From: Acidimicrobiia bacterium
Lineage (GTDB): Bacteria; Actinomycetota; Acidimicrobiia; Acidimicrobiales; CATQHL01
DNA: 64,000 nucleotides
NCBI GenBank assembly: GCA_009835395.1
Contig: VXXM01000059.1
Coordinates: 1-64,000, forward strand
Direction of reading: 5' to 3'
Made by a program: the position numbers and the translations under genes. Position 1 is the first letter of the stretch. Every line of letters starts with the position of its first letter. The notes below the pieces were generated by a model. It did not search any database and was not told the origin of the DNA. It was given only the letters and a program-made list of their open reading frames with translations. Below are positions 6,172 through 55,410 of the stretch, piece after piece.

Positions 6172-6933
6172 GTGGCCGGGGCCACCGGTTCGCGCGGGCT
6201 GCGGGCGTGCCGGCGCGGCGCCACGGCGCTGGCGGCCTGCGGCCTGCTGCTGGCGGCGGCCGGCTGCGGCGGCGGCTCCGATGCCGGCGAGCGCCGGGGC
6301 GTGACGGTGTTCGCGGCCTCCTCGCTGACCGACGTGTTCGGCGACATCGCCACCGCCTTCGAGGCAGCCCATCCGGGTGTCGAGGTGACTCTGCAGTTCG
6401 CCGGCAGCAGCCGCCTGGCCACCCAGATCAACGCCGGCGCGGCCGCCGACGTGTTCGCCGCGGCCGACGAGCGGACCGCGGCGCAGGTGGGTGCCCGGGA
6501 GGTGACGGTCTTCGCCCGCAACCGGCTGGCGATCGCCGTGCCGCCGGACAATCCCGCCGGCGTGACGGATCTGGACTCGCTCACCGACCGCGACCTGGTA
6601 CTGGCCCTGTGCGCCCCCGACGTGCCGTGCGGCGCGCTGGCGGAGCAGGTGGGTGGGCCGCGCCTGGTGGCGGCGGCTGACACCCGCGAGCCCAACGTGC
6701 GGGGTGTCCTCACGAAGTTGCTGCTGGGCGAGGTGGACGCCGGCGTGGTGTACGTCACCGACCTGGCCGCCGCCGGCGACGCCGTGCGGGGATTCGTCAT
6801 CGATCACCCCGCCGAGGTGGCCTACCCGCTGGCGCTGCTGAGCGACAGCGCCGAGGCCGCCGCCTTCGTGGACTTCGTGCTGTCCCCGCAGGCGCAGGAG
6901 CTGCTGGCCGGCGCCGGATTCGGGGCGCCGTGA
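6172..6933 (+). CDS. modA: Molybdate ABC transporter substrate-binding lipoprotein
   Basis: Captures molybdate (or tungstate) outside the membrane and delivers it to ModBC. The 253-residue protein begins with a twin-Arg-like basic head and a lipobox LAAAGC, then the ModA signature VTVFAASSLTDVFGDIATAF, QFAGSSRLATQI and AADVFAAAD. GTG 6172 follows the regulator stop by 7 bases, and the 3' end overlaps modB by 4 bases (GTGA), indicating translational coupling. Molybdenum would serve the CO dehydrogenase encoded at 41.5-45.2 kb, although the two loci are 33 kb apart. Confidence 0.93.
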   Translation: MAGATGSRGLRACRRGATALAACGLLLAAAGCGGGSDAGERRGVTVFAASSLTDVFGDIATAFEAAHPGVEVTLQFAGSSRLATQINAGAAADVFAAADERTAAQVGAREVTVFARNRLAIAVPPDNPAGVTDLDSLTDRDLVLALCAPDVPCGALAEQVGGPRLVAAADTREPNVRGVLTKLLLGEVDAGVVYVTDLAAAGDAVRGFVIDHPAEVAYPLALLSDSAEAAAFVDFVLSPQAQELLAGAGFGAP

Positions 6934-50222: not shown

Positions 50223-51365
50223 CTAGTTCGAGTCGCCTCCGGGGTCGAGCCCCGGGATGACGTCGGGCTTCTGGCGGCCCACGTCGGTGTAGTAGCGCTC
50301 GGGCACCTTGGCCGGGTCCTTGTAGACGTGCCAGGTGCACTTGGCGGTACCGTCGTTGGGGTAGGTGGGTGGCTCGGTGACCCGCACGGGATAGCCGAAG
50401 TGGTCGATGGGCATCAACTGCATGACCATGCAGCAGTTCACGCAGTAGTAGCAGACGCCCTTGGTGTTCCAGGCGAAGTCGAACTCCTCCTCGAAGACGC
50501 CGAACTCGAAGGGCGACTCCATGCGGGGCGGTGAGCCCTCGACGGCGTCGACGAGCATCGAACGGCCGCCGCTGCCGCACGGGTTGAAGCGCCACGTGTA
50601 GCGGTCCTCGTCCTCGCTGAACTCCATATTGCCGTCCCGCTCAGGGCCCACCAAGTGGCCGCGCATCGCCTCCATGGCCAGGTAGACGTTGGTCCACAAC
50701 GACTCCGACCAGGGGTTCTTCTGGATGTCGAACTTCTCGTAGCGCGTCTCGAACAGCGGCCCGATGATGGCGCTCCAGAAATCGCCGACCGCCTCCTCGC
50801 CCCAGTAGACCACCGCCTCGTTCAGCAGCCCGTAGAGGTGGTCCACGTCGCGGTCCTGAACCTGCCGCCAGACCTCCTTCAGCTCGGCGAGGGACTCCAG
50901 CGCCTCGGCGCGGTCGTGCGCCCCGACGGCCACCAGGCAGCGCCGCATCTCGGCCTCGAACTCCGCCCAGCGCACGCTTGAGACGAACGGCCGCCCGTCC
51001 GGCAGGCGGATCAGGTCGATGAGCCGCCGGTTCAGTTCCAGGAGTTGCGCCCGGCCGATGCCCCGCTCGGCCAGGAAGGCGACGGCGTCAGGGATCAGCC
51101 CTTCGAAGAAGCCGTGGATGACCGCGGCCTCGTCGTAGAAGAAGTCCACGTACTCGGCGGCCTCCGCCCACTGTCCCGCCTCGATCGCCTCGATCGCCCT
51201 CGTGTAGGTGGCAACCGCGTGGGACTCCCACGTGACATCCGAGCGAACTCGCCGGCCCAGCGTCTCGGAGTACTGCAGCACCCCGGTCGGCGAGATCTCC
51301 GGTGCGGGCATCTCCGATGCCTCGGCCAACATCTCGCTGATCCATCCCGATGCGTCCTTGACCAT
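50223..51365 (-). CDS. Unknown 380-residue Cys-motif protein
   Basis: I do not recognise this family. It is mostly helical and acidic (TYTRAIEAIEAGQWAEAAEY, VDHLYGLLNEAVVYW). Near the C-terminus it has CGSGGRS, then GVCYYCVNCCMVMQLMPIDH and AKCTWHVYKDP, a dense cysteine cluster with a following His that could bind zinc or iron or form a catalytic Cys site. No signal peptide or membrane segment is visible. ATG follows AGGGGGAG. It lies between the ABC ATPase (120 bases upstream) and an SDR on the same strand, suggesting an enzyme acting on an imported sugar-like compound. Confidence 0.75.
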   Translation of the reverse strand: MVKDASGWISEMLAEASEMPAPEISPTGVLQYSETLGRRVRSDVTWESHAVATYTRAIEAIEAGQWAEAAEYVDFFYDEAAVIHGFFEGLIPDAVAFLAERGIGRAQLLELNRRLIDLIRLPDGRPFVSSVRWAEFEAEMRRCLVAVGAHDRAEALESLAELKEVWRQVQDRDVDHLYGLLNEAVVYWGEEAVGDFWSAIIGPLFETRYEKFDIQKNPWSESLWTNVYLAMEAMRGHLVGPERDGNMEFSEDEDRYTWRFNPCGSGGRSMLVDAVEGSPPRMESPFEFGVFEEEFDFAWNTKGVCYYCVNCCMVMQLMPIDHFGYPVRVTEPPTYPNDGTAKCTWHVYKDPAKVPERYYTDVGRQKPDVIPGLDPGGDSN

Positions 51366-51485: not shown

Positions 51486-52277
51486 TCACCGAGCGCCGGT
51501 TATGTAGGCCACGACCTCCTCGGCCGTGGTTTCAGCCTTGTCCAGGTCGGCAACCAGGTAGCCCCGCCTCAGCACCAGGATCCGGGTGCAGACCGACCAG
51601 ACGTGCTGCAGGTTGTGGGCGATAACGATCATCGCCCGGTCCTCGCCGGCCAACTCGTTGATCATGTCCAGCACGCCGGCGGACTCCTGCACGCCAAGTG
51701 CGGCCGTGGGCTCGTCGAGCAAGAGCAGCCGCCCGCCCCAGAATGCCGCCTTGGCCAGGGCGACGATCTGGCGCTGGCCGCCCGACATGGTCTCGACGGC
51801 GGCGTCGAAGTTCGGGAACTTGGCGGGGATCTCGCTGACCTTCTCGCGCGCCCGGCGGCGCATGTCGCGGCGGTTCAGGACGCCGAGGCGCTGCCGGATC
51901 CCCTTCTGCAGGATCTCCCGGCCCAGGAAGAAGTTGGTGGCCATGTCGAACATCTCGATGAGGGCCAACTCCTGGTAGACGGTCTCGATGCCGGCATCGC
52001 GCGCCTCGGCGGGCGTTGCCACGTCCAGCGGCTTGCCGTCGAGGAAGACGTGGCCGCTCGTGGGGTGCTGAACGCCGGCGACGATCGTCACCAGGGTGGA
52101 CTTGCCGGCACCGTTGTCGCCGACGAGGCCGACGACCTCGCCGGCGTTCACCGAGAAGCTCACATCCTGCAGCGCCTTCACGGCGCCGAACTCCTTAGAG
52201 AGGTGGTCCACCACCAAGAGGGGCGCCTCGGTACCGGCCACCGTGACCGGATCCTGGGGAACGGCCGACGCGCTCAC
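51486..52277 (-). CDS. Sugar-type ABC transporter ATP-binding protein
   Basis: 263-residue single nucleotide-binding domain: Walker A GDNGAGKST, Q-loop TVYQELAL, signature MSGGQRQIVALAKA, Walker B LLLLDEPTAALG and H-loop IVIAHNLQHV. Sequence style is that of the ribose/fructose/xylose (CUT2) importers. Most CUT2 ATPases have two fused domains of about 500 residues; this one has a single domain as in FrcA, so it should dimerise. GTG overlaps the permease stop by 4 bases. Confidence 0.92.
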   Translation of the reverse strand: MSASAVPQDPVTVAGTEAPLLVVDHLSKEFGAVKALQDVSFSVNAGEVVGLVGDNGAGKSTLVTIVAGVQHPTSGHVFLDGKPLDVATPAEARDAGIETVYQELALIEMFDMATNFFLGREILQKGIRQRLGVLNRRDMRRRAREKVSEIPAKFPNFDAAVETMSGGQRQIVALAKAAFWGGRLLLLDEPTAALGVQESAGVLDMINELAGEDRAMIVIAHNLQHVWSVCTRILVLRRGYLVADLDKAETTAEEVVAYITGAR

Positions 52278-53359
52278 AACTCGAACCTCACTTCCGGCTT
52301 GCCGCGCCGCAGCCGCAACTGGTCGAAGGCCACGGCCGTCACCAGCAGACCACCCCGCACGACCTCCTGCCAGAACGACGTGACCCGCATCAGCGTGAGC
52401 CCGTTGTCCAGCACGGCCAGGATGAGGATCGCCACGAGCGTGCCCCCGATGGTGCCGCGCCCGCCCGAGAGGCTGGCACCGCCGAGGATCACCCCGGTGA
52501 TCGCCAGGAGTTCGAGCCCCATGCCCGTCGTGGGTGCCGTGGCGCCGATCGACGACACCAGGATGAAGCTGCCCAGCGCGACCGAGAGTCCCGAGAGCAT
52601 GAAGGCGATCACCACGTTGCGCTCCAGCGACACGCCCGCCAGCCGCGCCGCCTTCGGGTTGGCCCCCATGGCGTACATGTGCAGCCCGTAGCGGGTGTAG
52701 CGCATCAGCAGGCTGAAGAGCAGCGCCACGGCCAGCAGGATCAGCACGGCGACCGGGAGCCGCACATCGGTGCCCGGGATCGCGAAGCGGCTTCGCCCCA
52801 GGAAGCCGAACCCGTCCAGGCGGATCGAGCGGCCGTCGCCGATGAGCTTCGCGGCGCCCCGGAAGGCGGCGAGGGTACCCAGGGTGGCGATCAGCGAATT
52901 GACGCGCAGCTTGGTGATCGCGACCGCGTTGATGGCGGCGATGCCCATGGCGGCCCCGATGGCGGCGAGCACGGCGACGCCCAGCCCGAAGCGGCTCTCT
53001 GCGACGACGGTCAGCGTCGTGGCGGCGAAACCGACGGCGGAGCCGATGGAGATGTCCACCTGCCGGGCGACCAGTAGCAGCGTCGCCGGCGCCGCCACGA
53101 TGCCCACCACCGCGGCGTTCATCAGCACGTTGATGAGGTTGTTGGTGGTCAGGAAGAACGGGCTGGCGAAGGTGAAGATCACTCCGAGGGCGATCAGGAC
53201 CAGCAGGCGGGCGTTGTCGGGGCGGAACAGCCAGCGGAGCGGACGCATCGGCAGCGCGGTCCCCGCACTCATGCCTAGTGCCGCCGCGCCGCTCGACTCG
53301 GCCTCGGGTGAGGCGGCGAGCCGGTCGGACCCGGTCTCGCCGCCCCTATCGATTCCCAC
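52274..53359 (-). CDS. Sugar-type ABC transporter permease (CUT2)
   Basis: 361-residue integral membrane protein of the RbsC/FrcC family with about ten spans; characteristic NLINVLMNAAVVGIVA, VDISIGSAVG, NGLTLMRVTSFWQEV and GASLSGGRGTIGGT. The first 40 residues are a cytoplasmic head. GTG 53359 start, 41 bases after the binding-protein stop; overlaps the ATPase gene. The likely substrate is a pentose, hexose or polyol; the co-located dehydrogenases favour a sugar or sugar acid. Confidence 0.92.
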   Translation of the reverse strand: MGIDRGGETGSDRLAASPEAESSGAAALGMSAGTALPMRPLRWLFRPDNARLLVLIALGVIFTFASPFFLTTNNLINVLMNAAVVGIVAAPATLLLVARQVDISIGSAVGFAATTLTVVAESRFGLGVAVLAAIGAAMGIAAINAVAITKLRVNSLIATLGTLAAFRGAAKLIGDGRSIRLDGFGFLGRSRFAIPGTDVRLPVAVLILLAVALLFSLLMRYTRYGLHMYAMGANPKAARLAGVSLERNVVIAFMLSGLSVALGSFILVSSIGATAPTTGMGLELLAITGVILGGASLSGGRGTIGGTLVAILILAVLDNGLTLMRVTSFWQEVVRGGLLVTAVAFDQLRLRRGKPEVRFEL

Positions 53360-53400: not shown

Positions 53401-55410
53401 CTACTCGGGGTAGTACTCGTCGATGTTGGTCTTGTCGATGAAGACGTGGTCGATGAGGATCTCCTCGTCGACGGGCTCGCCCTTGGCGAGCGCGATCGCC
53501 GCGGGCACCGCGATCGAGCCGTAGCTCTCGGGGAAGTACGCCACGTCGCCCACCCAGTACGGGTTGTTGCGGATCTCATCGAGGATCGAACCGTCGGCGC
53601 CGTGACCGACGACCCACACTTGGCCCTCACGGCCTGCGACCTCCGCGGCCGCCAAAGCCGCGCCCGGCATCGAATCCCCCGACGGGCTGATCACCAGGAT
53701 CACCTCCGCCGTCGGCAACGTCGTCAACAGGTCCGTGAACTGCCGGCGCGTGTTCTCGGGCTGGTCGCCGCCGCCGCTGAGCGTGTCGATCGAGAAGTAC
53801 TTGTCATCGGGCACCGGCCCGCAGACCTCCTCGAAACCGTCCTTGCTGCCCCCGGCGCGAGGACCGTTCACCGCCGGAATGCTCGGAATGTCCAACGACA
53901 CATACGCGTCGTAGTTGCAGCCGAACTCGGACTGGGCGAAGTTGCCCAGACCGCGACCGGACACCACACCCGCGAAGTGGTTGTTGGCGCCGATCCACAC
54001 CCGCTGGCACGGCTTCTCGTCAGTGTCCAACGCGACGGTCGGCAAGTTCCCGTACGCCTCGCAGATCTCCGGCGCCGAATCCGGGAAGAACTGCCAGTTG
54101 ATCATCGAGTCCAGGTCCTGCACCGCCAGCGTGCGCGCACACTCCAACGCCTCCTCAGCGGAGAAGTTGCTGTCACACTCCGCCAACTCCACACCGGCCT
54201 TGGCGGCCTCCTCACGGATCGACTCGGTCACAATCAACACAAACGGATCCGCATCACCACCAGAGATATACCCCAAACGGATATCCTCGACGGGCTCGGC
54301 GCCCTCGAGCGGGTAGTAGTCGTCGATGTTGGTCTTGTCGATGAAGACGTGGTCGATGAGGATCTCCTCGTCGACGGGCTCGCCCTTGGCGAGCGCGATC
54401 GCCGCGGGCACCGCGATCGAGCCGTAGCTCTCGGGGAAGTACGCCACGTCGCCCACCCAGTACGGGTTGTTGCGGATCTCATCGAGGATCGAACCGTCGG
54501 CGCCGTGACCGACGACCCACACTTGGCCCTCACGGCCTGCGACCTCCGCGGCCGCCAAAGCCGCGCCCGGCATCGAATCCCCCGACGGGCTGATCACCAG
54601 GATCACCTCCGCCGTCGGCAACGTCGTCAACAGGTCCGTGAACTGCCGGCGCGTGTTCTCGGGCTGGTCGCCGCCGCCGCTGAGCGTGTCGATCGAGAAG
54701 TACTTGTCATCGGGCACCGGCCCGCAGACCTCCTCGAAACCGTCCTTGCTGCCCCCGGCGCGAGGACCGTTCACCGCCGGAATGCTCGGAATGTCCAACG
54801 ACACATACGCGTCGTAGTTGCAGCCGAACTCGGACTGGGCGAAGTTGCCCAGACCGCGACCGGACACCACACCCGCGAAGTGGTTGTTGGCGCCGATCCA
54901 CACCCGCTGGCACGGCTTCTCGTCAGTGTCCAACGCGACGGTCGGCAAGTTCCCGTACGCCTCGCAGATCTCCGGCGCCGAATCCGGGAAGAACTGCCAG
55001 TTGATCATCGAGTCCAGGTCCTGCACCGCCAGCGTGCGCGCACACTCCAACGCCTCCTCAGCGGAGAAGTTGCTGTCACACTCCGCCAACTCCACACCGG
55101 CCTTGGCGGCCTCCTCACGGATCGACTCGGTCACAATCAACACAAACGGATCCGCATCACCACCAGAGATATACCCCAAACGGATCACGTCGTCGCCCGC
55201 AGGTGCTGCGGGTTCGGCGTCGTCCATCGGCTCGGCGGGCTCCGCCGGCTCGGGAGGCGGCGCCGCGTCGGGTGCAGCCGGCTCGGCCGCGGGCGCTGGT
55301 GCCGTCGAGACGGCCTCCTCGTCGTCGGCGCACGCGCCGGCGACGAGTGCCATCACTCCCAGAATGATGACGAACAGAGATAGTGCGCGAGATCGGCTCG
55401 AGTGCCGCAT
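53401..55410 (-). CDS. Sugar-binding lipoprotein with two nearly identical binding domains
   Basis: 669 residues. Signal with lipobox VAGAC (Cys27), a Pro/Ala/Glu linker (30-74), then two copies of a 290-residue type I periplasmic-binding domain (76-368 and 377-669), joined by a short LEGAEPVED linker. Each reads IRLGYISGGDADPFVLIVTE ... YFPESYGSIAVPAAIALA. The domains differ in only one residue near their ends (NIDDYYP versus NIDEYYP). CUT2 binding proteins normally have one domain of about 320 residues. The double protein may raise local ligand capacity, or be a very young duplication. ATG has GGGAGGGGGG upstream. Confidence 0.9.
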   Translation of the reverse strand: MRHSSRSRALSLFVIILGVMALVAGACADDEEAVSTAPAPAAEPAAPDAAPPPEPAEPAEPMDDAEPAAPAGDDVIRLGYISGGDADPFVLIVTESIREEAAKAGVELAECDSNFSAEEALECARTLAVQDLDSMINWQFFPDSAPEICEAYGNLPTVALDTDEKPCQRVWIGANNHFAGVVSGRGLGNFAQSEFGCNYDAYVSLDIPSIPAVNGPRAGGSKDGFEEVCGPVPDDKYFSIDTLSGGGDQPENTRRQFTDLLTTLPTAEVILVISPSGDSMPGAALAAAEVAGREGQVWVVGHGADGSILDEIRNNPYWVGDVAYFPESYGSIAVPAAIALAKGEPVDEEILIDHVFIDKTNIDDYYPLEGAEPVEDIRLGYISGGDADPFVLIVTESIREEAAKAGVELAECDSNFSAEEALECARTLAVQDLDSMINWQFFPDSAPEICEAYGNLPTVALDTDEKPCQRVWIGANNHFAGVVSGRGLGNFAQSEFGCNYDAYVSLDIPSIPAVNGPRAGGSKDGFEEVCGPVPDDKYFSIDTLSGGGDQPENTRRQFTDLLTTLPTAEVILVISPSGDSMPGAALAAAEVAGREGQVWVVGHGADGSILDEIRNNPYWVGDVAYFPESYGSIAVPAAIALAKGEPVDEEILIDHVFIDKTNIDEYYPE
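53408..54282. repeat. 875-bp tandem repeat, copy encoding the C-terminal domain
   Basis: Matches 54311-55185 with a fixed offset of 903 bases (301 codons, in frame). The only difference I found is at 53416 (C) versus 54319 (G). Confidence 0.95.
54311..55185. repeat. 875-bp tandem repeat, copy encoding the N-terminal domain
   Basis: Second copy of the unit, separated from the first by a unique 28-base linker (54283-54310). Near-complete identity even at silent positions indicates very recent duplication, gene conversion, or an assembly error. Confidence 0.95.

Follow-up and report, generated by a model that had tools for sequence, protein, structure and literature searches.

Here, we analyzed a gene on the reverse strand of the window (the whole 64,000-nucleotide stretch of DNA under study) that encodes a predicted sugar-binding lipoprotein with two almost identical binding domains in one reading frame. 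Our comparisons make it highly probable that this gene is a long-lived tandem fusion of a binding domain, the two copies of which are held alike by ongoing homogenization within the gene—that is, by gene conversion. By sequence, the copies are closer to each other within a species than to their orthologues although the duplication predates the species split, which is the signature of concerted evolution. The original prediction had offered three readings of the near-perfect repeat, namely, an extremely young duplication, an actively converted pair, or an assembly artifact; of these, the converted pair is the best supported, by the identity of the units within species and by the linkers shared between species, and the arrangement proves to be older and more widespread than had been noted.

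A twin-domain binding protein and its transporter

The twin gene (53401..55410, 669 aa; this and all following coordinates are on the reverse strand unless stated otherwise) is an open frame with two Peripla_BP_4 stretches, starting with an ATG at 55410 that has a GA-rich stretch ahead of it and ending with a stop at 53401. Its product comprises, in order, a signal peptide, a spacer, domain 1, a linker, domain 2, and two last residues. The putative signal peptide (55330..55410), which was read by eye from the sequence, has a lipobox-like VAGA/C end (MRHSSRSRALSLFVIILGVMALVAGAC), with LVAGA/C following a hydrophobic stretch at the N terminus of the protein. A spacer of about 48 residues rich in proline, alanine, glutamate, and aspartate (55186..55329) leads from the lipid anchor to the first domain and diverges fast, the N-terminal region being ∼20% different in DNA between the window genome and its sister species G007. 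Unit 1, the N-terminal sugar-binding domain (54311..55185), and unit 2, the C-terminal one (53408..54282), are 875 bp each and are joined by a linker of about 10 residues (54283..54310; PLEGAEPVED, with the core LEGAEPVED) that is not homogenized and reads LEGAEPPED in G007. Direct comparison of the gene at an offset of 903 gave one exact run of 866 bp (53417-54282 = 54320-55185), which is far outside chance, and no run of at least 25 bp at offsets of 900 or 906. A repeat search put the unit starts at 53408 and 54311, and the sole mismatch of the full unit falls at unit position 866 (53416/54319), near the 3′ edge of unit 2 and 9 bp from the end of the repeat. The two in-frame 875-bp units with an offset of 903 and a single difference are thus exactly as originally described.

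Each half of the protein is a full match to Pfam family Peripla_BP_4 (PF13407), the two stretches together reaching the profile with 107.7 bits against a curated cutoff of 35.1. An AlphaFold model of one unit, built from a 20-sequence alignment, has a mean pLDDT of 91.9, and Foldseek places it next to RbsB (7e7m, E value of 2.5e-16) and 5hsg (TM score of 0.81). According to this model, each unit is a complete type I periplasmic-binding-protein fold, closest to RbsB and other CUT2 binding proteins, and the ligand would be sugar-like, of the monosaccharide-type (CUT2) class. In a sequence search against solved structures, the nearest entries appeared only at E values of 5e-7 to 7e-4, and no NCBIfam model names the unit in a profile search. 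A DUF725 match on the binding protein was judged spurious, being weak, belonging to an insect family, and overlapping PF13407.

A permease (PF02653) and an ATPase (PF00005) follow downstream on the same strand. The permease (52274..53359, 361 aa) is of the CUT2 type (BPD_transp_2, 109.6 bits) and comes nearest to the AraH and RbsC models, although it stays below all their cutoffs. The ATPase (51486..52277, 263 aa), the gene of which overlaps that of the permease by 4 bp, has a single nucleotide-binding domain and covers only the first half of the ∼500-aa CUT2 ATPase models, again below every cutoff. The predicted two-domain sugar-binding lipoprotein beside one permease is backed by Pfam, AlphaFold, and Foldseek. 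Further downstream lies a conserved 380-aa protein without an assigned family (50223..51365), which matches no Pfam or NCBIfam model and has a syntenic homologue (L019) in G008, a genome from another genus of the family. It carries a cysteine-rich C-terminal motif, CYYCVNCC, is kept beside the transporter in both G007 and G008, and is possibly an enzyme for the imported compound. Elsewhere in the window, at 6316-6900 on the forward strand, one 278-aa frame has two short PF01547 matches to the ends of the model (1-63 and 209-307), which gives the impression of a domain that lacks its central part; frames like it also occur in G001, G004, and G007.

Age of the doubling and joint change of its units

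The window genome (G000) is a draft of 95 contigs and 3.16 Mb. Among the eight genomes of its genus, its own included, one other harbors the gene, and there, too, it is a twin: G007, a metagenome-assembled genome (MAG) whose locus (JAPPDX010000054.1) stems from a SPAdes assembly (NODE_ name, 14.8x). The two loci are collinear and share 93% DNA identity over 5.5 kb. Units 1 and 2 differ at 1 of 873 sites in the window genome and at none of 873 in G007, whereas all four unit comparisons between the species give 48 or 49 differences over the same 873 sites. Sorted by pattern, 48 sites are species-fixed and carried by both units, and not a single one is position-fixed. The dS between the window and G007 is alike for the units (0.174 to 0.177) and for the neighboring genes (permease, 0.162; 380-aa protein, 0.159; ATPase, 0.25). 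The linker is common to both species, with substitutions of its own, and occurs neither in the tail that follows unit 2 nor in the N-terminal spacer, which marks the junction as a shared derived feature. Given the same twin and the same junction linker in both species, with identical or near-identical units in each, the doubling predates the split of the window species and G007, and both units have changed together since then. This rules out an extremely young duplication, as the same twin and linker are found in a species that is 5 to 8% diverged in DNA, and the units are identical there as well. There is no sign of GC-biased conversion: GC3 is 0.88 in the window's units and higher, at 0.93 to 0.94, in their neighbors.

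The search for a single-domain version in relatives, which had been proposed as a check, yielded both states: the twin in the sister species G007 and a single domain in syntenic position in another genus. The latter orthologue, in G008 (3 contigs; CATQHL010000001.1), has 75% amino acid identity and is followed by the same genes, those for the permease, the ATPase, the 380-aa protein, and a dehydrogenase. This single domain in a syntenic operon indicates that the single state is probably ancestral and that the twin arose in the window's genus. A search of plasmids for the binding protein returned only single matches below 60% identity.

Twin families across the order and the assembly question

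We ran a PF13407 profile search over 118 genomes of the order and then fetched and measured the two-domain frames with equal scores. This search gave at least six Peripla_BP_4 twin families: A, the window's own (G000 and G007), B (G000 and G004), C (G001 and G004), D (G092 and G347), E (G014 and G559), and F (G607). In BLASTP comparisons among families A to E, A and C are 35% alike and the rest are not detectably similar, while F is 45% identical to E and has its own linker. In each of the five two-species families, every informative site follows the species and none the position of the unit (A, 48/0; B, 35/0; C, 105/0; D, 253/0; E, 151/0), amounting to 592 species-fixed versus 0 position-fixed sites. 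In family D, the species differ by 28.5% in DNA and synonymous sites are saturated, with units that are nonetheless identical within each. The two genomes, placed in one genus, also differ in base composition, with a GC3 of 0.40 versus 0.87 in orthologous genes, and the shift passed through both units of the twin (L032 and L093) together.

In 12 genomes searched completely, which were chosen partly for carrying twins, 130 PF13407 matches included nine two-domain frames, in each of which the two domains scored the same or nearly so, and no frame with two diverged PF13407 domains. No frame with two full-length domain matches was found among SBP_bac_1 binding proteins in 11 of these genomes, and in a phylum-wide PF13407 search, G014, from this order, was the sole twin among the strongest ∼150 matches listed. 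Long frames with a single match (L037-L044) were considered as hidden twins and dismissed, as their internal repeats reached at most 57% in windows of 300 nt. Two more members were noted in the window genome: a second, unrelated twin, of family B (L033, G000:C52:41701-43755), with 1,007 bp identical between its units and followed by a BPD_transp_2 permease, and a third twin, of family C (L090, G000:C38), which is incomplete because its contig opens within the final residues of unit 1; from there, it continues through the linker TLGPSAP into unit 2, the ends of the two units clearly differing. In G007, a 12,157-bp contig (L089, G007:C63) bears an inverted repeat of 1,546 identical nucleotides at both ends, which is the family C twin body behind two different signal peptides; it represents either two genes with one body, and hence exchange between genes, or a chimeric contig.

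Three families have a linker of their own that is shared between species (LEGAEP in A, DAGAPA in B, and the core GDAPDVAPS in D, the latter common to G092 and G347) and that recurs neither in the tails behind unit 2 nor in the N-terminal spacers. These linkers bear on whether each species duplicated its domain independently, every time too recently for the copies to diverge. Such events would yield identical units within species equally well, and the linkers of C and E, short or different as they are, leave room for separate events in these two families; yet for A, B, and D, linkers that are shared and missing from tails and spacers refute the idea, and a fresh copy would have identical edges, whereas the observed edges have diverged. 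Overall, we regard independent recent duplications as very improbable.

The diverged edges are visible in several families. In family B, the units are identical over the 1,007 nt in G000, and in G004, 19 differences crowd into the first 70 nt of unit 2, followed by 934 identical nucleotides, as would be left by a conversion tract with a sharp boundary. In family E, the tails in G014 clearly differ outside a 901-bp core, and the linker joins a duplicate of the native C-terminal tail (AADVCAGLEDLCAEAGI) to a spacer resembling that at the N terminus, an arrangement that in-frame doubling of the mature protein would produce. In family C, the first 400 nt of unit 2 in G007 are still ∼10% different from unit 1, indicating that homogenization is incomplete in places. 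Diverged edges around identical cores fit the kinetics of conversion described for tuf, where positions near the repeat ends are converted least (PMC5485169).

These edges also bear on the number of units. Most genomes used here are draft MAGs, and in short-read drafts, the window's included, a copy number of two is to be read as a minimum, because the assembly graph cannot count identical units with identical linkers. The genes might accordingly be arrays of two or more units whose number varies by unequal exchange, so that unit turnover rather than conversion proper homogenizes them, and unequal exchange would do so just as conversion does, with the linker kept. However, exactly two units are present in the family E twin of G014, a genome in a single contig of 4.8 Mb, and two are found in all closed assemblies, while the divergence of the edges fits conversion tracts at least as well. 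We therefore consider longer or variable arrays improbable.

A last alternative is that one binding domain was assembled twice or that two loci were merged. The window genome and G007 are assemblies of the kind in which this could happen, and other twins of these genomes break contigs with overlaps of 55 or 71 nt, the behavior of unresolved loops in an assembly graph. Contigs end in this way at the C twins in G006 and at the E twin in G586. Still, several observations make an artifact very unlikely: (i) the junction linker comes in addition to the units and is conserved between species while bearing substitutions of its own, so that the unit-linker-unit arrangement must exist; (ii) units as far apart as those of two species share few 55-mers (97/819 in A, 0/843 in D, and 0 in E) and would not merge in assembly; (iii) the C units of G007, which differ by 10%, were not merged by the assembler; (iv) the twin of G014, a genome in one contig, retains 4 differences over 901 bp; and (v) contig breaks at loops speak for a real repeat. 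The conserved linker, the recurrence of unrelated twins, and the G014 twin lead us to reject an artifact as the general explanation. Letter-perfect identity is nevertheless partly forced, as two near-identical units form one edge in a short-read graph, and small true differences may have been lost in draft MAGs, including the window genome. Binding proteins at contig ends in G000, G005, G006, and G007 were examined as broken twins and rejected, no k-mer being repeated at any end. Four of them, at the ends of G000:C73, C92, and C4 and of G005:C537 (L082-L085), start in low-complexity, proline/alanine-rich N-terminal spacers, which appear to interrupt assembly.

Proposed mechanism and comparison with known systems

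We propose that an in-frame duplication of the entire binding domain, in an ancestor of at least two species of the window's genus, gave the order anchor, spacer, domain, linker, domain, and that recombination between the domains—intragenic gene conversion, possibly with unequal sister exchange—has kept them identical ever since. The linker, the spacer, and the edges of the repeat would drift because exchange rarely reaches them. The recombination route is itself inferred from sequence patterns; the identity of the units needs nothing beyond recombination between neighboring repeats. Both domains, being equal, would probably deliver the same sugar-like ligand to one permease and ATPase, and the tether would bring more loaded domains, at a higher local concentration, close to the permease in a cell wall that lacks a classical periplasm. 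The survival of the double state for so long suggests selection for two domains, and we infer that selection probably maintains two tethered domains serving one permease. A more far-reaching view, which we put forward tentatively and hold to be somewhat less likely than its opposite, is that twins form a distinct, recurrent class in the order, in which separate binding proteins were doubled independently and the domains are still homogenized in all closed two-domain frames that we found, in some even across synonymous saturation. If true, identity itself would be under selection (or could not be avoided), contrary to what usually becomes of duplicated binding domains, and the copy number may vary in nature.

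The expected fate of a duplicated binding domain is divergence, as in GlnPQ, or loss, and recombination should collapse exact direct repeats of 0.9 to 1.1 kb that are separated by tens of bases. Against these expectations, independent sugar-binding families in this order have retained the two copies in identical form for long periods. The twins provide a natural system for measuring gene conversion inside a reading frame and raise the question of what use a second identical binding domain is to one ABC importer; they also caution that genes of this kind may be miscounted or broken in assemblies from short reads.

The transporter resembles CUT2 importers (RbsB/AraF/MglB type; PF13407 plus PF02653) in its binding-domain and permease families, its operon order, its RbsB-like fold, and its putative lipoprotein signal, here read by eye. 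Unlike them, it has a single anchor that bears two identical binding domains, and its ATPase contains one nucleotide-binding domain. Two tandem binding domains with a short linker in one ABC importer are known from GlnPQ, where a 14-aa linker in GlnP joins domains that bind independently (PMC8025302); by this analogy, simple doubling without cooperativity would be expected here. The GlnPQ domains, however, have unequal specificities and affinities and form one polypeptide with the transmembrane domain, whereas the units of the window's twin differ by one base and form a free, predicted lipoprotein of another family, with the permease encoded by a separate gene. In-frame repeats homogenized within one gene, as proposed here, occur in surface adhesins. 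They also occur in silk genes (PMC3933166). In both, the repeats are long structural arrays of varying number, whereas the twins, judging by the single-contig case, consist of exactly two complete ligand-binding domains. Long-lasting concerted evolution of prokaryotic duplicates, with copies more alike within than between species over long times, has been described for tuf, mtrA, and fla, and a screen listed 26 genes, the text naming no ABC transporter or substrate-binding protein (PMC6053082); these are separate genes, whereas here domains of one reading frame, tens of bases apart, behave in this way in at least six families. Our literature search found no report of binding proteins with twin domains homogenized over the long term. 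CUT2 binding proteins, tandem binding domains, and concerted evolution are each already known, and it is their combination in a long-homogenized twin that appears to be new.
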